A stretch of 12,182 bases of DNA from Bacillota bacterium (lineage in GTDB: Bacteria > Bacillota_A > Clostridia > Clostridiales > Clostridiaceae). Positions 1 through 12,182 of the stretch are shown piece by piece (the first letter of the stretch is position 1; each line of letters opens with the position of its first letter). The DNA lies in the NCBI GenBank assembly GCA_021780795.1, contig JAJXYA010000195.1:1-12182 (forward strand). Direction: 5' to 3'. Made by a program: the position numbers and the translations under genes. Under the pieces are notes generated by a model. That model was not told the origin of the DNA and made no database searches. It saw only the letters and a program-made list of their open reading frames with translations.

Positions 1-1165
1 TAAGCGATAAAACAACCTTTAATAGAGAGGACATTGCTGCAGAACTTACACCATGTCCAATATTAGGTTTTACAGAACCTACTCCACAAAATTGCTTTCT
101 GTCTGTGTACCTATCAAAGGCCATTTTAATTCCTTTAACTTCTATTGGATCTCCTAGAACTGTTCCTGTAGCATGAGCTTCGATATAGGAAATTGTTTCA
201 GGATTGATACCTGCATCTTCCCAAGCGCTTACAATCGCTTCAGATTGAGTTTCAGAGTTTGGAGAAGTAATTCCATTTGTGGCTCCATCGTTATTTATTG
301 AACCTCCTTTAATTACTGCATAAATATTATCCTTGTCCTTTATAGCTTCAGATAACGGTTTTAATATAACAAAACCAATGCCCTCTCCCCAAACTGTTCC
401 CTTAGAATTTTTATCAAAGGATGCAAGCTTACCATTTGTAGACTCTACCCCATCGAATTTTGCATCGATTTGTCTTAATAGATGTATTCCTCCAGCAATA
501 GCCATATTACATTCTTTATTTTTAATTGCTTTACATGCTAAATGTGTTGTTACTAGTGCTGAAGAGCATGCTGTATCTACTACAAAATTAGGTCCATGGA
601 GGTTTAAAACGTATGATATTCTACTAGCGAGAACAGAAGTCATAGACCCTGTCATAGATAATAAATCTTGCTGATCTGTCATTTTGTTATATTCCATTTG
701 ATATGTATGATCTATACCTACATATACACCAACTGGTGCTTTATCAAGGTTTTTGTTGCAATATCCAGAATCCTCCAAGGCTTCCCAAGCTGTTTCAAGG
801 AACAACCTTTGAGCTGGATGCATCGTTACAGCTTCTTTTGGCGAAATTCTAAAGAAACCTGCATCAAAGCCAGATATTTCTTGTAGCCACCCTGCTTTAA
901 GATCTATTGATTTTCCCATATCTTTTGCTCTGTTCTTAGGAAAATCTCCGATTACTTCAACACCATTTTTTAAATTTTCCCAATATTCATCTGCATTATC
1001 TGCGTAAGGAAATTTACATGCTATACCAACAATTGCGATATCTTTATTTTCTACCTCTTTATTTTTATTTAATTCTTGCAAAATAAGTAATGACATTTCG
1101 TTATCCAGTTGCCCATTTTGAACTCCTTCAAGTATATATCTATTGATAAGCTCTTTATTATTCAT
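1..1165 (-). CDS. Polyketide synthase, N-terminal part: docking segment plus ketosynthase (cut by left window edge)
   Basis: The reading frame opens with ATG at 1165 and stays open for 388 codons to the window edge, so the 3' end is missing. Residues about 1-38 form a charged helical head resembling the head of the upstream PKS, a probable docking element. From about residue 42 a beta-ketoacyl synthase (KS) follows. The catalytic Cys200 lies in DTACSSAL, His331 in EAHATGT and His371 in NIGHG, so the KS triad is complete and the domain should catalyse decarboxylative chain elongation. Two places differ from the neighbouring KSs: MHPAQR replaces the usual MDPxQR (residues 115-120), and the stretch after NIGH reads GVSSAAMSS. 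The gene lies 57 bases after the preceding PKS on the same strand and is presumably the next module of the line. What follows the KS cannot be seen. PKS identity is very secure; module composition is unknown. Confidence 0.95.
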   Translation of the reverse strand, partial: MNNKELINRYILEGVQNGQLDNEMSLLILQELNKNKEVENKDIAIVGIACKFPYADNADEYWENLKNGVEVIGDFPKNRAKDMGKSIDLKAGWLQEISGFDAGFFRISPKEAVTMHPAQRLFLETAWEALEDSGYCNKNLDKAPVGVYVGIDHTYQMEYNKMTDQQDLLSMTGSMTSVLASRISYVLNLHGPNFVVDTACSSALVTTHLACKAIKNKECNMAIAGGIHLLRQIDAKFDGVESTNGKLASFDKNSKGTVWGEGIGFVILKPLSEAIKDKDNIYAVIKGGSINNDGATNGITSPNSETQSEAIVSAWEDAGINPETISYIEAHATGTVLGDPIEVKGIKMAFDRYTDRKQFCGVGSVKPNIGHGVSSAAMSSLLKVVLSL

Positions 1166-1222
1166 TGTTTTCCCACTTCCTTATATTTTTATTTTTATAA
1201 TATTTTTACATGACTTTAGTCA
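1166..1222 (-). other. 57-base intergenic spacer, the largest gap in the operon
   Basis: This spacer separates the stop codon of the second PKS from the start of the third. It holds the ribosome binding site and a small dyad, TGACT-TT-AGTCA, at 1211-1222. The dyad is too short, with too tight a loop and no adjoining U-run, to be a convincing terminator. A weak promoter-like arrangement is present but could be chance in such AT-rich sequence. The genes are probably co-transcribed through it. Confidence 0.5.
1176..1182 (-). promoter_or_regulatory. Ribosome binding site of the third PKS gene
   Basis: On the minus strand the sequence AAGGAAG lies 10 bases before the ATG at 1165. It differs by one base from the AAGGAGG core and supports this start. 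It is weaker than the sites of the two upstream PKS genes. Confidence 0.6.
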
Positions 1223-4200
1223 CTAATTTGCTAAAAGCTTCATCGCTTCATCTATTGAAGTTGCTCCAGATTTTAAACCTTCCATCAAATCTTTAATATT
1301 ATTTCCTGCCTCGCCTTCCTCAAAAATTTGTTTTGATTTTTTGCTGCTGTCTTTACCTAGCTTATTATCTATATAGGTTGCCATTTGCTGTATAGATGGA
1401 TAAGAAAATATATCTGATATATCAATCATGTCTATAAACACTTTATTTATTTCTTTAAGCAATTGGATTGCAAGCATAGAGTCACCTCCAAGAGCCGAGA
1501 AATTATCATAAATATCAATTTCTTCGATTTCGAGAACTCTTGACCATACTTCAGCTAATTTATTTTCTGTTTCACTATAGCCAGCATTTCCTTTACCTTT
1601 TATCATGATTTTTGCTTTGCTATCCGAATTATTTTTAGCATTACTTTCAGTTTCTAATTTGACCTTTTGCTTTTCAAGCATATTTTCAAATTTCTCACAT
1701 AAATTAAAAGATAGGTTTTCCTTAATTTTTAAAAGCTTTTTAATATTTAATTCTCCTGGTAACGCCTTTGCTGAACTTGAATTTAATATTTCTTCAAAGC
1801 TATCTAAAGCTCTTTCAGTTACTATGGAATTTACTGTATTTTCGCTTTCACTTATTCCATAGTCTACGGCCATCCCTGTTTCCTTCCAAGCAGGCCAATT
1901 TATTGATTTGATATTTTTACCTTCTCTTTGACCTTTTACTGCAAAAGCATCCATATAACTGTTAGCTGCTGTATAATCTCCTTGTCCTAAATCACCAAAG
2001 ATAGATAGCATTGAGGAGAATAATACAAAGAAGTCCAAATTATCCTTTTGTGTTAGCTTATCTAATATAAAGGTTCCTTTAACCTTAGGTGCTAGTACAG
2101 AATTGAACACCTCTTTATCCTTTCTCATAATAAAGCCATCTCCTGCAAGCCCTGCACAGTGAATAATTCCGTTTATATTACCAAAATCTTTTCTTACTTC
2201 CATTAATATTTGTTCCATATCTTTTATGGAGGTAACATCTCCGCTAAAACTTTTTACTTTTGCTCCTAAACCTTGCATTTCTTTTATTCCATTAATTGTC
2301 CTCAATATTTTTTTGTTATCACCTTTTTTTATTACAGCTTCCCATTCATTTTCATTTGGAAGCTTAGAACGATTGATGAATACGATATTTACCTTCTTTT
2401 TAGAAGCTAAATACTTGCCCATTTCAAGGCCTAGACCCCCTGTTCCTCCAGTTATTACATAAGCTCCATTTTCTTTAAATTGTATTTTTTCACTTTCTTC
2501 TAACGTTAAGGTATCAAGTTCCTCTTCATATCTTCTATTATTTCTATATGCTACCTTGTAATTTTTCTTAGAATTTCTAATTTCATTTATTATCTTGTTG
2601 CTGTCAGTATTATCATCTATATCAACAGCTTTAATTATAAATTGAGAATATTCTAGAGGAATTATTTTACTTAGTCCAAACAATGCTGAATTTTCTGGCT
2701 TAATTGTTTTTTCATCACCTGTTACCTCATCTGAGTAATTTGATAAAACAACAATCTGAAGCTTCTTGTTATATTTATTTGTTACTAGAGCTTTTGTTAG
2801 ATAAAACAAGCTATTTACTCCCTTGTTTAGCTGTGGATCCAATTCGTTAAGCTCTGCTAACGCCTCTCCACTACTAAGAGCTGCTGCATGAATAATATGT
2901 GTTATATTTGCATCTACAAGATCTTTTGTAAGTTTTACATAGTCATCTTCTTCACCACTAATTACAAATTTATCTTTGCTAAGTCTTTCATATGCCTCTC
3001 CAAATTGAACTTTAACTACGCTACAATTATTATCTTCTAAGTTTTGTATTATATCTTCACCTATTTTTTCTTTGTTAGTGAAAATTAACACCTTGCTTCC
3101 TTGTATACTATTTGTAGCAGCTATGTTTTCACAATTTACCCATCTCAAATGCGAATAAGCGTTACTTTTATTTCTTTGTTCTCTCCTTATAAATTCAGCT
3201 TCATCTACCTTTTTAATACTGTAATCTTTGACCTCTGCAAAAGCTTTACCATCTTCATCTAATAAAGAAACATCAAAGGTTATGGTTTCCATTCCCTTGA
3301 GCAATTTTTCATTTATTCTAATATAGCTATAGAAATTATTTTTCATCTTCCCAAATACCTTTATAGATTTATAATAGAATGGAAGATATAAGCCTTTCCC
3401 TATCTTTTGACTTACTGAATTTACCGCATTATCTAGCATAGACACATGTAAGCAAAAATCCTCTACATCATATGCGATATGCTCTGGCAATTGAATTTTA
3501 ACTAGAGCTTCATTTTTACCTACCGCTATTATTTTTTCATTTTGCCACCTCTCACCTAGATCGATGCCATTCTTTTTAGGTGTCATGTCAATTAAACTTT
3601 TACTTTCTTTTTCTTTAACTAATTTATCTTCAATTGCTTTAATATCATATAACTTGCTGCAAAATTCACTGTTTTTATAAGCCTTACATTCTACATGCCT
3701 AATCCACTTTTCATTTATCTCTCCCTCATTTATTTTGCTAGCGAAGGTTATTTCAAAATGATCCTCCTTTTTAACTATTATGGATTGAACTTCTCTAACT
3801 TCATGTTCTACTACGCTTACTGGCGAATAGTAAATTACATCTTTAATCTCAACATTATATCCAAAGTGTTTTCTGCAGGTTTCAATAGCCATTTCGATGT
3901 AAGTGGTACCTGGAATTACATAGTTTCCAAGAATCTTATGATCACTAACCACCCACTGTCTATCTGTACTAAATTGAGTTACATAAATATCTTCATAAAT
4001 GGATTCAGCTAGACATCTGTCTACTAAAGGATGTTTAATGGTTTTGCTCACTATTATAGTTTCATTATTTTCTTTGACCTTTTCATCATACCAATAGCGA
4101 GTTTTTTGAAGTGGATACACTGGTAGGCTGACTCTTTTTATATTTTTTCCTTCATATAAACTTTCCCATTCTATCTTTGCACCTTTAATATATAAATCGC

Positions 4201-6061
4201 ACAGCTCAGCTGCTGTAGGATAATCATAGCTTTCCTTAAGCTTCAAAAGCTTCATCTCTGCAAATCTTGTAAGCTTTCTTCTTTCTGCCTCCGAATTCTC
4301 ACCGCTTTCACGATATGGTTTATTGTCTGAAACTAATTTGTGTTCACCATAATAAACTCCAAACTTACATATATCATCAAAGCCTGTTTCTGCTACATAT
4401 TTTATTTTTTCTTTAAGTTCTTCATAATCCTTAGCTAATATAATTAGTCTGTTACTATAGTGGCCTCTTCCTGTATTGGATGTATATGCCAGTTCATTAA
4501 TTGAAATATTTTTTTCCTCAAAATATTTTAAATAGTTATCCACTAATTGTTTTAAAGTTTCTCTACTTTTTGTTGATATTGTGAATATTTCAAATTCAGA
4601 TTCCTTAGTTTCCTTTTTAATCGAAACCTCAGGCGCTTCTTCCAATATTACATGACAGTTTGTTCCACTAAAACCAAAGGAATTGATTCCTGCTCGTCTT
4701 GGTGTTTCTCCTTTATACCAAGGCATATTTTTATCTGTTACATACACAGGTGAGTCGCAGAAATTTATGAAAGGATTAGGTTCATCGAAATTTAAGCTTT
4801 TTGGTATACTCTTATTTTTTAGCATCATAATTACTTTTAAGATTGAAGCCAAACCTGAAGCTCCGACAAGATGTCCTATACTTGTTTTTACTGTTCCAAC
4901 CCCACAAAATTGCTTCTTATCAGTAACTGCTTTAAATGCCTTCGTCATAGATTTTATTTCTATTGGATCTCCAAGCACTGTACCAGTTCCATGTACCTCA
5001 ATATATTGTATCGATTGTGAGTCTACCTCTGCATTTTTCCAAGCATTCAACAATAAACTTTCCTGTGCTTCTGCATCTGGAGCTGTAATACCATTTGAAG
5101 CACCATCATTATTTATTGAACTCCCCTTAATTACTGCATGAATAACATCTCCATCTGAAATAGCTTTACTAAGAGGTTTTAATAATACAGCACCTACTCC
5201 TTCTCCCCATACAGTTCCATTTGCTTTTTTATCAAAGGTTCTCACTGTATTATCTTTAGATTCAACTGAATCCAATTCTTTCAGTTCACTTTTAAACTTT
5301 ATTGGCCTATAATAAAAACTACTTAACCCACCTGCTATTGCCATATCACATTCACCATTTCTAAGAGAATTGCATGCATTATGTATGGAAACAAGACCTG
5401 ATGAACAAGCAGTATCTATAACCATACTTGGACCGCTAAAATTATAAATATAAGAAAGTCTGCTAGCAAGAATTCCGGGCCAAGTTCCTGTTACAACCAT
5501 TGGATCCTTAGCTGCTAATTGCTTATATTTTAAATCTGAAACATGATCTATTCCTACAAAAACTCCTGTATTGCTTCCATATACGCTATTTCCAGAATAA
5601 CCTGCACTTTCAATAGCTTCATAGGCTGTTTGCAAAAATATCCTTTGATCTGGATCCATTGTTTTTGCCTCTCTAGGTGGTATCCCAAAGAAATCCGCAT
5701 CAAACTTATCTATTTCCTTTACATATCCCCTAATCTCATAATTTAGAGCTAAGTGTCCATCTTCTTTAATTGCTCCTTCCTCCAATAACTCTTTTCTATG
5801 AAATTTTAGAAGAAAATCCTCCACATCCTTAACTCTTTCTTTTGGCAATTCCCCAATACAAGTAACGTTATTTTTTATATTATCCCAATATTCATCTAGA
5901 TTTTCTGCTTTTGGGAACTTCCCAGACATTCCGATAATAGCAATTTCCTCTTTGCTTTTAGTAGTTGAATTTTTAATTTCTATCAGCATTTCTTTCGCTT
6001 TTTCTTGTGTTAGATTATGCTCAGCAACTTGACTAAATATATAGTTTTTAATTGTCTTCAT
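1223..6061 (-). CDS. Single-module AT-less polyketide synthase, KS-DH-KR-ACP
   Basis: A 1612-residue protein forming one elongation module. Residues 1-35 are a helical docking-like head. KS spans about 37-475 with Cys219 (DTACSSG), His357 (EVHGTGT) and His397 (SIGH), the full catalytic triad. A linker at 476-657 ends in SLPVYPLQKTRYW, the motif normally found after an AT, but no AT is present (no GHSxG). The dehydratase at about 676-955 has the canonical HxxxGxxxxP (His708 to Pro717) and Asp877 in LDNAVN. The ketoreductase covers about 970-1430: TGGTGGLG nucleotide loop, Lys1326, Ser1350, Tyr1363 and Asn1367. Asp1308 in AGLAGDG fits a B-type KR. The carrier domain (1496-1567) has Ser1528 in GGDSM for phosphopantetheine. 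A helical tail (1585-1612) follows. No ER or methyltransferase domain is seen, so a complete cycle gives a 2-enoyl thioester. ATG at 6061 is preceded by AAAGGAGA. Malonyl units should come from the acyltransferase two genes upstream. Confidence 0.97.
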   Translation of the reverse strand: MKTIKNYIFSQVAEHNLTQEKAKEMLIEIKNSTTKSKEEIAIIGMSGKFPKAENLDEYWDNIKNNVTCIGELPKERVKDVEDFLLKFHRKELLEEGAIKEDGHLALNYEIRGYVKEIDKFDADFFGIPPREAKTMDPDQRIFLQTAYEAIESAGYSGNSVYGSNTGVFVGIDHVSDLKYKQLAAKDPMVVTGTWPGILASRLSYIYNFSGPSMVIDTACSSGLVSIHNACNSLRNGECDMAIAGGLSSFYYRPIKFKSELKELDSVESKDNTVRTFDKKANGTVWGEGVGAVLLKPLSKAISDGDVIHAVIKGSSINNDGASNGITAPDAEAQESLLLNAWKNAEVDSQSIQYIEVHGTGTVLGDPIEIKSMTKAFKAVTDKKQFCGVGTVKTSIGHLVGASGLASILKVIMMLKNKSIPKSLNFDEPNPFINFCDSPVYVTDKNMPWYKGETPRRAGINSFGFSGTNCHVILEEAPEVSIKKETKESEFEIFTISTKSRETLKQLVDNYLKYFEEKNISINELAYTSNTGRGHYSNRLIILAKDYEELKEKIKYVAETGFDDICKFGVYYGEHKLVSDNKPYRESGENSEAERRKLTRFAEMKLLKLKESYDYPTAAELCDLYIKGAKIEWESLYEGKNIKRVSLPVYPLQKTRYWYDEKVKENNETIIVSKTIKHPLVDRCLAESIYEDIYVTQFSTDRQWVVSDHKILGNYVIPGTTYIEMAIETCRKHFGYNVEIKDVIYYSPVSVVEHEVREVQSIIVKKEDHFEITFASKINEGEINEKWIRHVECKAYKNSEFCSKLYDIKAIEDKLVKEKESKSLIDMTPKKNGIDLGERWQNEKIIAVGKNEALVKIQLPEHIAYDVEDFCLHVSMLDNAVNSVSQKIGKGLYLPFYYKSIKVFGKMKNNFYSYIRINEKLLKGMETITFDVSLLDEDGKAFAEVKDYSIKKVDEAEFIRREQRNKSNAYSHLRWVNCENIAATNSIQGSKVLIFTNKEKIGEDIIQNLEDNNCSVVKVQFGEAYERLSKDKFVISGEEDDYVKLTKDLVDANITHIIHAAALSSGEALAELNELDPQLNKGVNSLFYLTKALVTNKYNKKLQIVVLSNYSDEVTGDEKTIKPENSALFGLSKIIPLEYSQFIIKAVDIDDNTDSNKIINEIRNSKKNYKVAYRNNRRYEEELDTLTLEESEKIQFKENGAYVITGGTGGLGLEMGKYLASKKKVNIVFINRSKLPNENEWEAVIKKGDNKKILRTINGIKEMQGLGAKVKSFSGDVTSIKDMEQILMEVRKDFGNINGIIHCAGLAGDGFIMRKDKEVFNSVLAPKVKGTFILDKLTQKDNLDFFVLFSSMLSIFGDLGQGDYTAANSYMDAFAVKGQREGKNIKSINWPAWKETGMAVDYGISESENTVNSIVTERALDSFEEILNSSSAKALPGELNIKKLLKIKENLSFNLCEKFENMLEKQKVKLETESNAKNNSDSKAKIMIKGKGNAGYSETENKLAEVWSRVLEIEEIDIYDNFSALGGDSMLAIQLLKEINKVFIDMIDISDIFSYPSIQQMATYIDNKLGKDSSKKSKQIFEEGEAGNNIKDLMEGLKSGATSIDEAMKLLAN

Positions 6062-6070
6062 TATTTTTCA

Positions 6071-6078
6071 TCTCCTTT
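6071..6078 (-). promoter_or_regulatory. Ribosome binding site of the second PKS gene, overlapping the upstream stop
   Basis: AAAGGAGA on the minus strand begins inside the TAA stop codon of the first PKS (6077-6079). Its GGAG core sits 10 bases before the ATG at 6061. A nearer ATG at 6071-6069 is out of frame. The overlap suggests translational coupling, which would keep consecutive modules in similar amounts. Confidence 0.8.
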
Positions 6079-9000
6079 AAAAATACTTATCCGCATCATT
6101 AATTGTCATTTCTCCTTGCGCCAATTTATTAAGCAGATCATCTAAATCCTCTAAATCTTCCTTAATAATAACTTCAGTTTTATTATCCTTATTTTTCATT
6201 TCATCTAAGTGCTTTGCCATAGCGTTTACTGTAGAATATGCAAATACATCCGCTATATCTATCATTCCTTCATATTCTAGTTCAAGCTTTTTCAAAAGCC
6301 TTATTGCTAGTATGGAATCTCCACCCATATTATTGAAGCTATCATATATATTCACTTCTTCAAGACCTAGCACCTGTGCCCAAATTCCTGCTAGCTTAAT
6401 CTCCGTTTCTGTAAATACATTGTCTTCTCCAAAGCCTTTAAGCTGAACTTCTTCTTTTAAAGTTTTCACATTATCTGATTTATTTTTCTTTAATTTTAAC
6501 TCCTTATTCCTCATTACCTTTGAAAGTTTTTTATCAAAATATATTGGAAGCTCTTCTTTCTTATTTATTAGCATTTCATAATTTAATTGTCCAATTATTA
6601 CCCTATTAAGGTTGCTATTTAATACAGCATCAAATGCATTAATAGCTGTAACTGTTTCAATTGCTTTTAGACTATTTTTGCTCTCATCCAAGCCATAATC
6701 TACAGCCATACCAACTTCTTTAAAAGCCCCCCAGTTTATACATAAGGTCCTCTTTCCTTTTTTATTTCTATATTCAGAGAAGGAATCCAAATAACTGTTT
6801 GCAGCTGTATAATCGCCTTGTCCTTGACCTCCTAAAATCGAGGTTATAGATGAGAATAAAACAAAGAAATCTAAATTTTCATCAGAAGTAACACTATTTA
6901 ATATAAAACTACCGTCTATTTTAGGCTTTAAAACTTTTTCAAAATCTTCAAAGCTTTTTTTAAATATAAATCCATCTCCTGCAATACCTGCACAATGAAT
7001 CACTCCATTTACAGCATAATACTTTTCTTTTATATCCTTAATGATAGTTTTCATATCATTAATACTTGCCGAATCTCCACTATAGCAAGTAACCTTGGAG
7101 CCTTTTGCTTCAGTTTCCATTATGGTCTTCATTGCTCTAATCAACTTTTTATTTTTCCCATTTTTTATAATTCCTTCCCACTCAGAACTATGGGGCATTT
7201 CGCTTCTGTTAATTAATATGAGGTTAACTTTATTCTTTGATGAAAGATACTTAACCATCTCAAGTCCTAAAGCTCCCATACCACCTGTGATAATATATAC
7301 ACCTCCGTCTTTTAGCTTTATATTATGAGCTTCAGAAGCTTCTAAATGTAGGTCCGTAAATTGTTCTGTATATCGAATGCCAGCTCTATACGCACACTTA
7401 TTTATATCTTTTCCATATTTAATTTCTGAAATAATATTTTTAGCTTGCTTTTCATCATCTACATCAATACATTTGCAGGTTATATTGTTATACTCTTGAC
7501 TTATTACTTTTGAAAAACTGAAATATGCTGCGCTAAGTGAATTAATATTTTTTTCTATACCTGTAACTTTATTTGCATTGTTTGAAACTAATATCATATG
7601 AATTTTATTATTATACTTACAATTAATTAGTGCTTTAGTTAGAAAGAACAAGCTGTCGATTCCATATTGCCTCTGTTTTTTCAATGCCTTAAGCTCTTCT
7701 ACCTCAGGCTCTTGTCCAAAGGTCCACATATGAATTATAGTGGCTATATCTTTTTCTTTAATACTGTTTAAAATCTCAATATAATCTTGTTCACTGCTTC
7801 CAACTATATAATTATCTACGTTTAATTTTTTATAGCCCTCCCCTAATTTAACTTCTATAACTTCATATCCTTCAGTTCTAATTTTAGCTGCAAGCTGACT
7901 ACTAACTCCAAATTCATCAGTAAAAATAATAGTATTCCCTGTGGCATATTTTTCATTTTTTTGAGCGATCTCATTTACATTCCAAACTAAGTTATGATAT
8001 AAATTGTCATCACTATTTGCTTTAAAATCATTTTCCTTTACTCTCTTTACAATGTAATCTTTAACTTCTACAAAGCACTTACCTGTTTTATCAAAGAGCA
8101 AAACATCGAAGCTCATTGTCTCTGAATTATTATCATTTCTGCCTCTTCTTTTTATATAGCTATAAAATTCTTTTGGAGAAGGTCCATATACCTTCATACT
8201 GCCATAAGAAAAAGGTAAGTAAGTTCCATTTCCTAAATAGGTATTTGCTGCATTAATACTTCTATCTAATGCAGGAGGGTATAAATAATAATTTCCTAAA
8301 TCCTCCTTATATTCATCTGAAACATTAAAATGAGCTATAAATTCGTTATTTTTACACTTATACATCTTCTTACTAATATTTGTCCATCTTGGACCAATTT
8401 CTACAGATATTTTTCTCTCAGAAGCCTCAGCCTTTAATTCCTTCACTTCATTTTCTATGTCACAAAATAATAATGCCTCTACATTTATTTTTCTGACTAT
8501 TCCCTCCACATGAACAATCCATTCACCTTCTGATTCGCTTGTAATAATAAATTCAGAAAAACTTTCTTTTTGTTTTAATACTATTTGTAATTCTCTATTT
8601 TCATCTTCTTTTAAGCTAAAGGGTGACATAAATATTACTTTTTGAAACTCAATATTTTCATTATCTAAGGCTTCAGAATATACTTTTCTTATCATCTCCA
8701 AATATGCTGTCCCCGGCAACACATATTTATCTCCTACCTTATGTTGTCCTAACACCCAATTTTCCTTAGGATTAAAGGTCTTTGAATATATCCTTTCATC
8801 AAAAGCTTTAACTATTAAGCGATCTATTAAAGGATGTAGTGCTTTACCTTCATTAGAAAACTTATATCTAGTTTCCCTAAAGTTTTCTTCTGCCCAGCAT
8901 CTATGACGCTTGAACGGATATATTGGTAAGCTAAGTTTTCTCCGAACCTCATCCTCATATAGTAAATCCCAAGGCACTTCTGCACCTTCCACATATAAAT

Positions 9001-10747
9001 CACATAGCCTTTGTAATACTTCTTCTTCTCTTTCAAAAGAATTAATATATTCCTTCAAGGTTTCTGCAGCTAATTTGCTTAATCTTTTAAAATCTACTTC
9101 GCTTGCATACTTAACTATTATTTTTTTATAATTCTTTTTTAAACAATTTAGCTTTTCCATTAATTCAGTTTTGTTATTAGCAGTTATAGCAATTCTAAAC
9201 TTATGATGAACTCTACCTGTATTGACTGTGTAACAAATATCTCTTATGTCAGCCTCTTCATTTTTTTGGAGAAAACTTAAATATTTATCTACCAATTCAT
9301 AAACTTGCTCTTCACTCTTTGCTGCAAGAGTAAATATTTGAGGTCTAGCTGTGCTTTTTCTTATTTCCTCCCTATCTTCCATGTACTGCTCTAGCACTAT
9401 GTGACAATTTGTCCCAGCAAGTCCAAAGGAACTTACGCCACCTCTTAACTTTGTTCCATCACTTTCCCAATTATTTGTCTTATCATTTATATATACTGGA
9501 GAATTTATAAAATCTATTTTTCTGTTCGGTCTTTGAAAATGTATAAGCCTTGGAAGCTTTTCATGTTTAAGGCACAATACTAATTTTATGAGTCCTACCA
9601 GACCAGAAATATTATCTAAATGCCCAATATTTGTTTTTACAGAGCCTATAGCACAAAAATTCTTTTTACCAGTAAATCTTTTAAAAGCTCGCTCAATGCC
9701 ACTTACTTCTATAGGATCACCAAGATTCGTAGCTGTTCCATGTGCTTCTATATACAAAATACTTTCTGGATTTATATCTGCATTCTCCCAAGCTTCAATA
9801 ATTACTGCTTCTTGAGCTTTAGCATTTGGTGCTGTCAATCCGATACTGTTTCCATCTTGATTTACTGCACTTCCTTTAATTACTGCATATATATTGTCTC
9901 CATCCTCCACTGCCTTGTTAAGCTGCTTCATTAAAATCGTTACAACACCTTCTCCTGAGCCTATACCATCTGAGCTATCATCAAAGGTTTTTGCTCTATC
10001 CATTGCAGATCTTATTCCAACCTCATTATCTAAACCTTTTTTAATAGGCATAAGATTTATTTTTACTCCACCAGCCATAGCCATATCACAATCGCCTTTA
10101 AGGATTCCCTGACAAGCTAAATGTACTGCTACTAAAGCTGAAGAACAGGCTGTATCAACTAAAATACTTGGTCCTTTCAAATCCAAAAGATAGGAAATTC
10201 TGCTTGCTATTATAGATTTAACATTTCCTGCTAAAGAAATATTTTCATATAGCTTTGGATAAAACATTTTTATATACATATGGTAATCTAAATTAAAATC
10301 ACTGCTGTGTCCAACATAAACTCCAGTTTTTGTCCCCTTTACCTTCTCACCACTATATCCTGCATCTTCTAGTACTCCCCAAGCTGCCTGTAGAAATAGT
10401 CTTTGGTTTGGATCCATTAACCTTGCTTCCATCGGTGAAATATTAAATAACTCATAATCAAATTTATCAATTTCGTCTAAATATGCTGCTTCACATAATT
10501 TTTCTTCACCTTCTATTACCCTTTTATAATCTTCAAGTCTTTGGGAAGGAAAGTTTCTAACACAATCTTCCCCTTTCATAAGATTGTCCCAAAATTCATC
10601 TAAATTATTTGCCATAGGTAATTTACTGTACATTCCAATTATAGCTATGTCCTTAGTAGATATTTTATCTTGCTTTCTTATTATTCTATTTTCAGCTAGC
10701 TGACTTTCAATTTCTTCAAAATTTACTAACCTATTTAACAATGCCAT
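6077..10747 (-). CDS. Single-module AT-less polyketide synthase, KS-DH-KR-ACP
   Basis: A 1556-residue elongation module. KS at about 32-455 has Cys201 (DTACSSAL), His336 (EAHGTAT) and His376 (NIGH). The linker at 456-618 ends in SLPIYPFKRHRCW and holds no acyltransferase domain. The dehydratase is at about 637-905. Its catalytic region reads QHKVGDKYVLPG: His669 and Pro678 are correctly spaced but the Gly of HxxxGxxxxP is Asp673, shifted by one. The second-site Asp828 is in ALDRSIN. The ketoreductase (about 917-1395) has TGGMGALG, Lys1276, Ser1300, Tyr1313 and Asn1317, and Asp1258 in AGIAGDG fits the B type. The carrier domain (1446-1517) has Ser1478 in GGDSI. The acidic helical tail (about 1529-1556) resembles that of the next PKS. 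The short head (1-31) does not match the heads of the two downstream PKSs. There is no ER or MT domain, so the expected output is an alpha,beta-unsaturated chain if the DH works. The start is not fully settled: TTG at 10741 has better spacing to the ribosome binding site than ATG at 10747. Confidence 0.97.
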   Translation of the reverse strand: MALLNRLVNFEEIESQLAENRIIRKQDKISTKDIAIIGMYSKLPMANNLDEFWDNLMKGEDCVRNFPSQRLEDYKRVIEGEEKLCEAAYLDEIDKFDYELFNISPMEARLMDPNQRLFLQAAWGVLEDAGYSGEKVKGTKTGVYVGHSSDFNLDYHMYIKMFYPKLYENISLAGNVKSIIASRISYLLDLKGPSILVDTACSSALVAVHLACQGILKGDCDMAMAGGVKINLMPIKKGLDNEVGIRSAMDRAKTFDDSSDGIGSGEGVVTILMKQLNKAVEDGDNIYAVIKGSAVNQDGNSIGLTAPNAKAQEAVIIEAWENADINPESILYIEAHGTATNLGDPIEVSGIERAFKRFTGKKNFCAIGSVKTNIGHLDNISGLVGLIKLVLCLKHEKLPRLIHFQRPNRKIDFINSPVYINDKTNNWESDGTKLRGGVSSFGLAGTNCHIVLEQYMEDREEIRKSTARPQIFTLAAKSEEQVYELVDKYLSFLQKNEEADIRDICYTVNTGRVHHKFRIAITANNKTELMEKLNCLKKNYKKIIVKYASEVDFKRLSKLAAETLKEYINSFEREEEVLQRLCDLYVEGAEVPWDLLYEDEVRRKLSLPIYPFKRHRCWAEENFRETRYKFSNEGKALHPLIDRLIVKAFDERIYSKTFNPKENWVLGQHKVGDKYVLPGTAYLEMIRKVYSEALDNENIEFQKVIFMSPFSLKEDENRELQIVLKQKESFSEFIITSESEGEWIVHVEGIVRKINVEALLFCDIENEVKELKAEASERKISVEIGPRWTNISKKMYKCKNNEFIAHFNVSDEYKEDLGNYYLYPPALDRSINAANTYLGNGTYLPFSYGSMKVYGPSPKEFYSYIKRRGRNDNNSETMSFDVLLFDKTGKCFVEVKDYIVKRVKENDFKANSDDNLYHNLVWNVNEIAQKNEKYATGNTIIFTDEFGVSSQLAAKIRTEGYEVIEVKLGEGYKKLNVDNYIVGSSEQDYIEILNSIKEKDIATIIHMWTFGQEPEVEELKALKKQRQYGIDSLFFLTKALINCKYNNKIHMILVSNNANKVTGIEKNINSLSAAYFSFSKVISQEYNNITCKCIDVDDEKQAKNIISEIKYGKDINKCAYRAGIRYTEQFTDLHLEASEAHNIKLKDGGVYIITGGMGALGLEMVKYLSSKNKVNLILINRSEMPHSSEWEGIIKNGKNKKLIRAMKTIMETEAKGSKVTCYSGDSASINDMKTIIKDIKEKYYAVNGVIHCAGIAGDGFIFKKSFEDFEKVLKPKIDGSFILNSVTSDENLDFFVLFSSITSILGGQGQGDYTAANSYLDSFSEYRNKKGKRTLCINWGAFKEVGMAVDYGLDESKNSLKAIETVTAINAFDAVLNSNLNRVIIGQLNYEMLINKKEELPIYFDKKLSKVMRNKELKLKKNKSDNVKTLKEEVQLKGFGEDNVFTETEIKLAGIWAQVLGLEEVNIYDSFNNMGGDSILAIRLLKKLELEYEGMIDIADVFAYSTVNAMAKHLDEMKNKDNKTEVIIKEDLEDLDDLLNKLAQGEMTINDADKYF

Positions 10748-10755
10748 CTCCTCCT
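10748..10755 (-). promoter_or_regulatory. Strong ribosome binding site overlapping the acyltransferase stop codon
   Basis: AGGAGGAG on the minus strand shares its first two bases with the TAG stop of the acyltransferase gene (10754-10756). The GGAGG core ends only two bases before the ATG at 10747, closer than usual, but is 8 bases from an in-frame TTG at 10741-10739. The real start may therefore be TTG, which would remove two residues. The overlap points to coupled translation of acyltransferase and PKS. Confidence 0.75.
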
Positions 10756-12031
10756 AATTGTTCGATATTAGATATTCCTTTTCTTCCGATGGCATGACAA
10801 AGTTCTCAAATAAATGTCTAGTTCCAGTTTCATTAAATATTTGCTCAAATCTTTCAATTTGCTCTTCAACTGGAGTTCTCTTAGTTTCAAAAACAGACTT
10901 TAGCATTTCTAAAGCTGCTTCCATTTGAGCTACCGTAGGGTATTGTCCACTTTTTTCAATCTCCTCTTGCATTTGTTCTATTTTTTTATATGGTATTGAA
11001 ACACCAGCTTGATATTCATCATTGTTCCAATTAAAGTTTCTTGTGCAAACTGCAACTGCCATACTTCTAGTAACTACTGTTGGCTCATTTGCCTTTGGCT
11101 TTAATTCTTCTTTTAAAGCCTCTATATCTTCGCTGTTGTCATAAGAAAAAGCCTTAATACTTGGAACAGTCTTTCTTACAATATTTCTCAAAACATTTTG
11201 AGGTCCCATTTCAACTCCTATATTTATACCTTTTTTCACAAAATAATCCATAGTCTTCGTCCATTGAACTGGTTGTACAAGCTGTTTTGTAAGATTGCTA
11301 ACAATTTGTTCTACACCCTCATATGGTGCTGCACTTACATTTGAAATTACAGGGAACTTCAAGGGATTAAATTTATATTTTAGTAGCTCATCCTTCAATT
11401 TATCAGCAGCTTGTTGCATAATTGGACTGTGGAAAGCAGCGCTAACCTTTAAGTAGGTTACTCTTGCACCCATTCCTTCAAGTTTATGTCCTACCTTCTC
11501 AACTGCATTTTTATGTCCAGAAATAACCGTTTGATTTGAAGAATTATAATTTGAAATAACAACTATGTTATCAGTAGTAGATTCTGCAATACACTCCTTT
11601 TCGATTACAGCTATATCAACATCTCCTACTGCTGCCATTAGCCCTTCTCCTGCTAATGCTGCTTCCTGCATAAATATTCCACGTTTCCTTACAATTTTAA
11701 CTGCATCTGATAATTCTATTGCACCACTTGCTGTTAAAGCTGTATATTCACCAAGACTATGTCCAGCTGCACAAATTGGTATGATTCCATTTCTATCTAA
11801 ATACGTCCTATACGCTGCTACACTTGCAGTTAAAATTGCAGGTTGTGCATTTTCTGTTTTTGTTAATTGTTCAATATCACCTTCAAAACATAACTTCGCA
11901 ATATCTAATCCAAGTGCCTCATTTGCTATTTTAAAAACTTCCCTAGCTACCTTTGATTCATCATATAATGCCTTACCCATTCTTACATATTGTGATCCTT
12001 GACCTGGAAACATAAATCCTAATTTTCTCAT
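10754..12031 (-). CDS. Free-standing malonyl-CoA:ACP acyltransferase (FabD-like trans-AT) with C-terminal extension
   Basis: This 425-residue protein should transfer malonyl units from CoA to carrier-protein phosphopantetheine in the cytoplasm, serving the AT-less PKS modules downstream. Visible motifs are PGQGSQ (Gln11), GHSLGEY with nucleophile Ser92, RGIFMQ with Arg117 that binds the malonyl carboxylate, and AAFHSP with His201. These positions equal the well-known E. coli FabD numbering (Gln11, Ser92, Arg117, His201), which supports ATG at 12031 over an in-frame TTG at 12052. AAAGGTGG lies 10 bases before that ATG. The FabD-like core ends near residue 305. The remaining 120 residues are an extra region with no motif I recognise, rich in charged helices, containing a CTRNFNWNNDEY segment. 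A housekeeping fatty-acid FabD is less likely because of this tail and the operon position. The gene starts 25 bases after the upstream partial gene and ends 6 bases before the first PKS. Confidence 0.93.
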   Translation of the reverse strand: MRKLGFMFPGQGSQYVRMGKALYDESKVAREVFKIANEALGLDIAKLCFEGDIEQLTKTENAQPAILTASVAAYRTYLDRNGIIPICAAGHSLGEYTALTASGAIELSDAVKIVRKRGIFMQEAALAGEGLMAAVGDVDIAVIEKECIAESTTDNIVVISNYNSSNQTVISGHKNAVEKVGHKLEGMGARVTYLKVSAAFHSPIMQQAADKLKDELLKYKFNPLKFPVISNVSAAPYEGVEQIVSNLTKQLVQPVQWTKTMDYFVKKGINIGVEMGPQNVLRNIVRKTVPSIKAFSYDNSEDIEALKEELKPKANEPTVVTRSMAVAVCTRNFNWNNDEYQAGVSIPYKKIEQMQEEIEKSGQYPTVAQMEAALEMLKSVFETKRTPVEEQIERFEQIFNETGTRHLFENFVMPSEEKEYLISNN

Positions 12032-12041
12032 AATATTTTTA

Positions 12042-12049: not shown

Positions 12050-12056
12050 CAAATTC

Positions 12057-12182
12057 CTATAAATTATTTTTTATCGTATTAATAATATTTATATAAAGCT
12101 GTAGTAATTTTTCAGCTTTATTTATTTTAATTACTTTAAAATTATAATGTAGTGATATTTCTGCACGATTTCCTAAATCTTT
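12057..12182 (-). CDS. C-terminal end of an unidentified protein (cut by right window edge), possibly condensation-domain-like
   Basis: Reading inward from the right edge, 41 codons stay open until a TAG at 12057-12059. An open frame of this length is unlikely by chance at this AT content, so I read it as the 3' end of a gene on the same strand as the PKS operon. The peptide runs from KDLGNRAEISLHYNFKV through a segment rich in Leu, Ile, Asn and Lys, ending in LQLYINIINTIKNNL. A beta-strand-like stretch followed by a final amphipathic helix recalls the C-terminal edge of NRPS condensation or related acyltransferase domains, but 41 residues are too few to assign this. It lacks the tail motif found on the two complete PKSs. 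It ends 25 bases before the acyltransferase start, so the operon continues upstream. Confidence 0.55.
   Translation of the reverse strand, partial: KDLGNRAEISLHYNFKVIKINKAEKLLQLYINIINTIKNNL

Follow-up and report, generated by a model that had tools for sequence, protein, structure and literature searches.

Epifadin, a short-lived, membrane-perturbing nasal antibiotic with a broad spectrum of activity, is the founding member of the peptide-polyene-tetramic acids. It is assembled by a non-ribosomal peptide synthetase (NRPS), a discrete acyltransferase (AT) and AT-less polyketide synthases (PKSs) thought to act iteratively, and its tetramate is proposed to be formed by a terminal condensation-like domain (available sections of PMC11310079). 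The same sections already mention clusters of moderate similarity in Clostridium and Lachnotalea, and a list of 2012 gives trans-AT PKS/NRPS clusters, of a kind reported to stay silent in Clostridium in standard culture, for several species of that genus (available sections of PMC3250452). Here we describe a 12,182-nucleotide stretch of DNA from a member of the Clostridiaceae (GenBank assembly GCA_021780795.1, contig JAJXYA010000195.1), analysed as a whole and referred to below as the window. On sequence comparison, the window is probably the PKS core of a peptide-polyene-tetramate assembly line of the epifadin type. The original prediction, made from the letters of the window, had not recognised the type of product and had held such systems to be rarely described in strict anaerobes; the epifadin type and its Clostridium and Lachnotalea clusters overturn the first of these statements (PMC11310079, in part) and the 2012 list shows the second to be overstated (PMC3250452, in part).

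Two complete proteins in the window, PKS1 and PKS2, are made up of ketosynthase (KS), dehydratase (DH), ketoreductase (KR) and acyl carrier protein (ACP) domains according to Pfam and carry no AT domain, just as had been predicted. The third KS protein was also correctly seen, although only in part: beyond the edge of the window it continues as a full KS-DH-KR-ACP protein of 1585 amino acids (PKS3). Acyl_transf_1 (PF00698) is absent from all four KS proteins of the cluster as judged by Pfam, and is found instead as the single domain of a separate protein that scores 298.3 bits against the NCBIfam fabD model (cut-off 260.9) and contains the GHSLGE and AFH motifs, in agreement with the earlier description of a discrete FabD-like enzyme. 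Every gene in the window lies on the minus strand, with gaps of 57 (PKS3/PKS2), 15 (PKS2/PKS1) and 6 (PKS1/AT) bases, so that the tight, co-directional arrangement described earlier is confirmed. Frames of 1556–1612 amino acids with multi-domain matches are, on this sequence evidence, far beyond chance.

Motif searches and alignment show the catalytic residues to be present throughout: Cys-His-His in the KSs, His and Asp in the DHs, Ser-Tyr-Asn in the KRs and GGDS in the ACPs. The KS histidines of PKS2, missed by the pattern search, were read from the translation (EVHGTGT, SIGH). In the DH motif HxxxGxxxxP the glycine is replaced by aspartate in PKS1 and PKS3 and by asparagine in EfiC, and is kept in PKS2 and EfiD; the histidine is kept in all five proteins. 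A decayed cluster was considered and dropped, the frames being open and the catalytic residues present. The AT-less architecture is firm, and malonyl groups are predicted to be transferred in trans to the ACPs. Bases 12057–12182 encode the end of an upstream NRPS, and the line is therefore a PKS/NRPS hybrid: the original call of a trans-AT polyketide line is right as to AT-less modules and a discrete AT, and needs correcting on this point.

The window corresponds to positions 54819–67000 of an 82,514-base contig (C97), which we read from position 20,000 to its end. It forms the centre of a ten-gene, 33-kb run on one strand (C97:72397 down to 39446) that comprises, in order of transcription, the NRPS (1840 amino acids), the AT, PKS1, PKS2, PKS3, a thioesterase with a GHSMG motif, two ABC transporters, a PKS/NRPS protein of 2232 amino acids (hereafter the hybrid) and a phosphopantetheinyl transferase (PPTase). 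With A, C and PCP denoting adenylation, condensation and peptidyl carrier protein domains, Pfam resolves the NRPS as A-PCP-C-A-PCP and the hybrid as KS-ACP-C-A-PCP followed by a second condensation-family stretch at its terminus. One further PF00698 protein is encoded elsewhere in the genome, away from the cluster.

The epifadin cluster (efiA-G, O, P, T; Staphylococcus epidermidis IVK83, plasmid pIVK83, NZ_CP088003.1) shares with this line an NRPS, a discrete AT, AT-less KS-DH-KR-ACP proteins, a hybrid of the order KS-ACP-C-A-PCP-terminal domain, a thioesterase, a PPTase and two ABC transporters. Directly aligned, the hybrid and EfiE are 33% identical over 2250 columns. The AT matches EfiB at 34% over 404 amino acids and the three PKS proteins match EfiD at 33–34% over 1584–1644 (PKS1 34% over 1584, PKS2 34% over 1644); identities are 36% over 167 for the PPTase with EfiP, 28% over 225 for the thioesterase with EfiT, 28% for the NRPS with EfiA and about 27% for the transporters with the Efi transporters. 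When matching plasmid records were ranked by coverage times identity (1255 records for PKS1, 2848 for the hybrid), pIVK83 and its twin from S. saccharolyticus came top with both queries. The two systems are not the same, however. Three DH-KR proteins are present here as against two in the epifadin cluster, and the window line has an additional O-methyltransferase, an ABC-2 exporter and an agr locus, and is without EfiO. EfiO, an oxidoreductase placed between the last PKS and the hybrid, was treated as a trait of epifadin itself, rather than of the class, because the related clusters of S. mutans and L. lactis also lack it (PMC11310079, in part). Judged by sequence, epifadin is the nearest characterised system that we found, its class is a known one and the window line is a variant within it; as far as we found in the literature searched, there is no study of this variant or of its product.

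The substrates of the adenylation domains can be predicted from their signatures. We take that of the hybrid, DAKDVGVVDK, to be glutamate-like, that of EfiE, read in the same way as DLTKIGHIGK, to be aspartate-like, and that of the second NRPS A domain, read by eye as DILQIGVVWK, to be glycine-like, in each case by comparison with reference signatures. An acidic-amino-acid signature in the last A domain is therefore common to the two lines, glutamate-like in the one and aspartate-like in the other. The hybrids other than EfiE all have signatures beginning DAKD (12/12). Activation of glutamate by the last A domain is probable. For EfiE, the epifadin paper itself assigns aspartate (PMC11310079, in part), and the agreement of our reading with that assignment serves as a control.

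Together, these features suggest a route to the product. The NRPS would load a first amino acid (Xaa) and then add glycine, and the discrete AT would place malonyl on the ACPs of the AT-less PKSs. PKS1, which we infer to be the entry PKS module, and PKS2 and PKS3 would each extend, reduce and dehydrate the chain, so that conjugated double bonds arise, three in number if every module is used once and more if the modules are iterative as proposed for epifadin. The KS-ACP part of the hybrid would then add a last, unreduced malonyl unit to give a beta-ketoacyl chain, its C-A-PCP part would attach glutamate through an amide, and its terminal domain would release the chain by a Dieckmann-type closure to a tetramic acid. 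With each module acting once, the predicted product is Xaa-Gly followed by three double bonds, a beta-keto unit and glutamate, and its end could cyclise to give a 3-acyl tetramic acid bearing a carboxyethyl side chain. Tailoring by the O-methyltransferase, export by the ABC transporters and control by the agr locus are likely additions, the last of these being a guess from position.

What is new here, and the most promising lead, is the terminal domain of the hybrid, which is encoded beyond the window. Homology to epimerisation domains extends over about 440 residues. Against solved chains, the domain scores 296 bits with tyrocidine synthase 2 (6ta8), 278 with gramicidin S synthase 1 and tyrocidine synthase A, 269 with bacitracin synthase 3 and 171–174 with PvdL, as against 38 or less with chains of linear gramicidin synthase A and tyrocidine synthetase 3, which we take to be condensation domains. 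The motifs HHxxxDG and EGHGR are thought to be catalytic in epimerases. In the hybrid, the aligned HHxxxDG reads HQMIIDH, and EGHGRE...GW reads GNHGRS...GR. We counted both motifs in a set of 360 listed proteins (the best 120 matches of each of three protein searches on capped candidate sets) together with our own protein, counted once, and the Efi proteins. The canonical forms gave 56 pattern matches (HHxxxDG followed by S-x-R) and 52 (EGHGRE...GWF). The form [HN]QxxxDH was found in 13 distinct proteins of 2130–2248 amino acids, each identified as a hybrid of this kind from its Pfam domains (EfiE from full-length alignment), from Bacillus, Paenibacillus, Clostridium, Lachnotalea and Staphylococcus among others. 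All 13 hybrids of this length examined, EfiE included, have the two changes together, HHxxxDG to [HN]QxxxDH and EGHGR to G[NS][HN]GR; the second reads G[NS]HGR in 12 of them and GNNGR in L. glycerini.

Two further proteins from the set are instructive. P0214 has the HQ but keeps DG. In P0195, which is longer and can be aligned with the hybrid from end to end, the corresponding domain was classed as canonical and is followed by further modules; the changed motif therefore goes with the domain being terminal. In a search of the phylum, 12 of the 13 other matches had EGHGR...GWF and one had neither pattern, so that none carried the changed motif. A tree was built from 43 epimerisation-type domains, thinned from 67 with all 13 remodelled domains kept, and four condensation domains. 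The remodelled domains form one clade with support of 100, nested among the canonical epimerisation domains. By these sequence comparisons the terminal domain is descended from an epimerisation domain, though it is not classed as one. Both motifs are lost together and their replacements are strictly retained, which argues for a selected function at release; by analogy with the structure of epifadin, we propose that this function is formation of the tetramate. It is possible, at somewhat less than even odds, that an epimerisation domain has in this way become a Dieckmann-type, tetramate-forming release domain, a new functional class in the condensation-domain superfamily that would be shared by a family of peptide-polyene-tetramate lines across the Bacillota, including an agr-adjacent clostridial branch. 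A literature search with few subscription journals found no paper titled on an epimerisation-type tetramate-forming domain.

Several observations weigh against an epifadin-type line or its release by this domain. Even in the case of epifadin it is a proposal that the terminal domain, there called condensation-like, forms the tetramate, and the terminal domain of EfiE sits on a very long branch (4.5) in the domain tree. The line is only 27–36% identical to the Efi proteins, its gene order differs, and two A domains precede the PKS part here compared with four in the epifadin cluster (in that paper's numbering, with five residues). The first A domain of the NRPS, with a signature read by eye as DPRHLAILAK and linear gramicidin synthase A as its top match among solved structures, was assigned no substrate. 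With the hybrid as query, a Nostoc plasmid has a summed score above those of the Efi plasmids, but in four pieces. No EfiO homologue was found in the contig stretches read or in the genome, where the best match to the EfiO-like protein of C. akagii was one of 41 residues (E 8e-4). Finally, the thioesterase inside the run could itself release the chain.

This last point leads to the most serious alternative, a trans-AT hybrid line in which the thioesterase releases a linear acid or a macrocycle and the terminal domain is inert or structural, with no tetramate formed. A terminal domain lacking both of the motifs kept by canonical epimerisation domains would fit an inert role. Release by the thioesterase would also fit the loss of epifadin activity on removal of efiT and efiP together, an outcome that loss of the PPTase alone would explain as well (PMC11310079, in part). 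The same replacement motif is nevertheless retained in 13/13 hybrids of several genera, which argues for a selected function. Stand-alone thioesterases next to NRPSs are usually editing enzymes. We regard release by the thioesterase as unlikely, if worth keeping in mind. Less probable again is a terminal domain that is still an epimerase, with a product ending in D-glutamate and separate release chemistry: the clear homology to epimerisation domains would favour this, but neither HHxxxDG nor EGHGR survives at its position in any of the 13 hybrids, and canonical domains in the same set keep them.

A cis-AT or fatty-acid-type PKS that merely looks AT-less is close to refuted as far as architecture is concerned, despite some points in its favour. 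In each of the four KS proteins the Pfam model of a CurL-like linker outscores that of a RhiE-like linker. The same preference is seen in EfiD, which belongs to a line described as trans-AT, and EfiC gives a weak RhiE-like match only; as a discriminator between cis- and trans-AT systems the linker test fails here. The KS phylogeny was examined in two trees, both from short searches with SH-aLRT (approximate likelihood-ratio test) support only. From 81 KS rows, among which a Streptomyces KS with no AT detected was flagged as unsure, the first tree retained 71 rows (11 duplicates, near copies and second KSs removed, FabF added) and the second 66 (15 removed, three of them long or doubtful). In both trees the four KSs of the cluster group with the three Efi KSs and their relatives in an AT-less clade, which has 36 rows in the first tree and 35 in the second and support of 99 in each. 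The KS of PKS1 falls in the part of the tree that holds EfiC (94), those of PKS2 and PKS3 in the part with EfiD and EfiE (99), and that of the hybrid among other hybrids (89; 80 with EfiE and L. glycerini). In the 71-row tree the sister group (89) consists of three cis-AT KSs of Chroococcidiopsis and one KS from a plasmid region of Bacillus velezensis (L033), which we take to be of bacillaene type. That region encodes an AT-less modular PKS, like the window line, and seven of its eight KSs fall outside both the group of the window KSs and its sister. Tests on the 66-row tree rejected neither a union of the clade with cis-AT KSs (p-AU 0.407) nor one clade of all AT-less KSs (0.385). The KS tree suggested in the original prediction supports an AT-less clade, and is compatible with a deeper tie of that clade to cis-AT or to classic trans-AT KSs.

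Parts of the proposed line are also seen in relatives. Among the matches listed, full-length hybrids 48–56% identical to ours occur in Bacillus, Paenibacillus, C. akagii and L. glycerini; those of B. velezensis, B. spizizenii, Bacillus sp. AF62 and P. riograndensis (52–56%) have the glutamate-like signature and the same terminal motif. Genome candidates were scored with at most two per genome in the family search with the hybrid, four in the phylum search and eight in the family search with the terminal-domain profile. Matches to the hybrid at E 1e-200 or better were found in 31 of 206 family genomes, but over the whole length only in the host and in G627 (taken as C. akagii from its matching coordinates), the only two to exceed 700 bits with the terminal-domain profile (next 456). 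Only the host did so among 398 genomes of the phylum (next 387). Several other genomes of the family (G611, G603, G581 and so on) match the hybrid from about residue 3 to about residue 1,800 and do not reach the terminal domain. A scan of genome contigs found no relative with PKS1 and only C. akagii and L. glycerini with the terminal domain; it is no census, because close hybrids exist among Bacillus and Paenibacillus proteins. The nearest relatives of PKS1 and the AT among the matches listed (65% and 81%) lie on metagenome contigs, both of 37,701 bases and probably one and the same. None of the other 117 genomes in the search for relatives is labelled as the genus of the host.

The clusters of C. 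akagii DSM 12554 (L034, L060) and L. glycerini DSM 28816 (L035, L061) have in common with ours the AT, the hybrid (52% and 48% identity) and the O-methyltransferase, and their PKS proteins, two compared with three here, align over their full length to PKS1 and PKS2. In C. akagii, which additionally shares the NRPS and the ABC-2 trio, the order is NRPS, AT, PKS, PKS, an EfiO-like oxidoreductase (45% to EfiO; none found in the window line), hybrid, O-methyltransferase and ABC-2 trio. In L. glycerini it is an AT-like open reading frame (ORF) at the edge of the stretch read, PKS, PKS, AT, hybrid and O-methyltransferase. Besides its AT gene, the L. glycerini cluster thus contains a second AT-like ORF, which is cut by the end of the stretch (gene and ORF at L061 8580-9836 and 19331-19900, minus strand), and a second, larger region of that genome (L062, L063; contig 1, 264–304 kb) has eight KS domains with no AT detected behind them. 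Our literature search found no paper on polyketide or non-ribosomal clusters of C. akagii or L. glycerini.

Features of the window and the adjoining contig. Plain positions are those of the window; C97 positions are those of the contig, with L009 and L010 equivalents where given.
Feature	Position	Strand	Remarks
5' part of PKS3, most of KS inside window	1..1165	minus	Whole protein C97:51226-55983, 1585 aa, KS-DH-KR-ACP
PKS2, KS-DH-KR-ACP, no AT, 1612 aa	1223..6061	minus	Pfam, catalytic residues, alignment to EfiD
PKS2 KS (about residues 38-475)	4637..5950	minus	Pfam
PKS2 DH (residues 677-955)	3197..4033	minus	Pfam
PKS2 KR (residues 1199-1394)	1880..2467	minus	Pfam
PKS2 ACP (residues 1501-1564)	1370..1561	minus	Pfam
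PKS1, KS-DH-KR-ACP, no AT, 1556 aa	6077..10747	minus	Pfam, catalytic residues, alignment to EfiD
PKS1 KS (about residues 32-455)	9383..10654	minus	Pfam
PKS1 DH (residues 638-905)	8033..8836	minus	Pfam
PKS1 KR (residues 1149-1343)	6719..7303	minus	Pfam
PKS1 ACP (residues 1451-1514)	6206..6397	minus	Pfam
Discrete malonyl acyltransferase (AT), FabD-like, 426 aa from ATG	10754..12034	minus	Pfam, NCBIfam, motifs
NRPS 3' end (last ~41 codons and stop)	12057..12182	minus	Whole gene C97:66875-72397, 1840 aa, A-PCP-C-A-PCP and C-terminal tail
Hybrid terminal domain	C97:40183-41526 (L010 2183-3526)	minus	Epimerisation-domain homologue, both motifs replaced
agr-type locus	C97:36265-39218 (L010 426-602, 583-1218; L009 16266-17961)	minus	AgrB PF04647, GHKL histidine kinase, LytTR response regulator

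In the ORF list the AT frame extends to an upstream TTG at 12052; the ATG start gives 12034. Upstream of the run, on the same strand, are genes for an ABC-2 ATPase, two permeases and the O-methyltransferase. Downstream, again on the same strand, the agr-type locus adjoins the PPTase gene and encodes AgrB, a short AgrD-like ORF, a GHKL kinase and a LytTR regulator. The AgrD-like ORF (59 amino acids, with a cysteine and a YEPK tail) has no Pfam match and is assigned from its position and look only. When the region upstream of the NRPS was scanned for promoters and terminators, none was found on the NRPS strand. After its second PCP the NRPS ends in roughly 200 residues without a Pfam match (L011 876 to about 1480, minus strand), perhaps a partial condensation-type or docking tail. 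A 541-residue protein encoded on the plus strand beside the O-methyltransferase (C97:77548-79173; L011 11549-13174) has weak DUF4135 and LANC_like matches and is possibly lanthipeptide-synthetase-like. At the right end of the contig (L011 14095-15910, minus strand), short adjoining ORFs with PHP-like and nucleotidyltransferase-like pieces, recognised by eye, look fragmentary. A search for COX1 found none in the host genome (8 of 14 control genomes were positive), which is in line with anaerobic life without being proof of it; the host's family also holds Clostridium akagii, and the Clostridium-like, anaerobic setting of the original prediction agrees with both observations.

A branch of clostridia in which the peptide is shorter, the cap derives from glutamate and O-methylation is probable would reveal which parts of the peptide-polyene-tetramate class are essential and which are variable. 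The pair of motifs [HN]QxxxDH and G[NS][HN]GR offers a simple sequence tag for finding such lines and for probing tetramate release, whilst the agr locus beside the run hints at a means of activating a cluster whose kind has been reported as silent in Clostridium (PMC3250452, in part).

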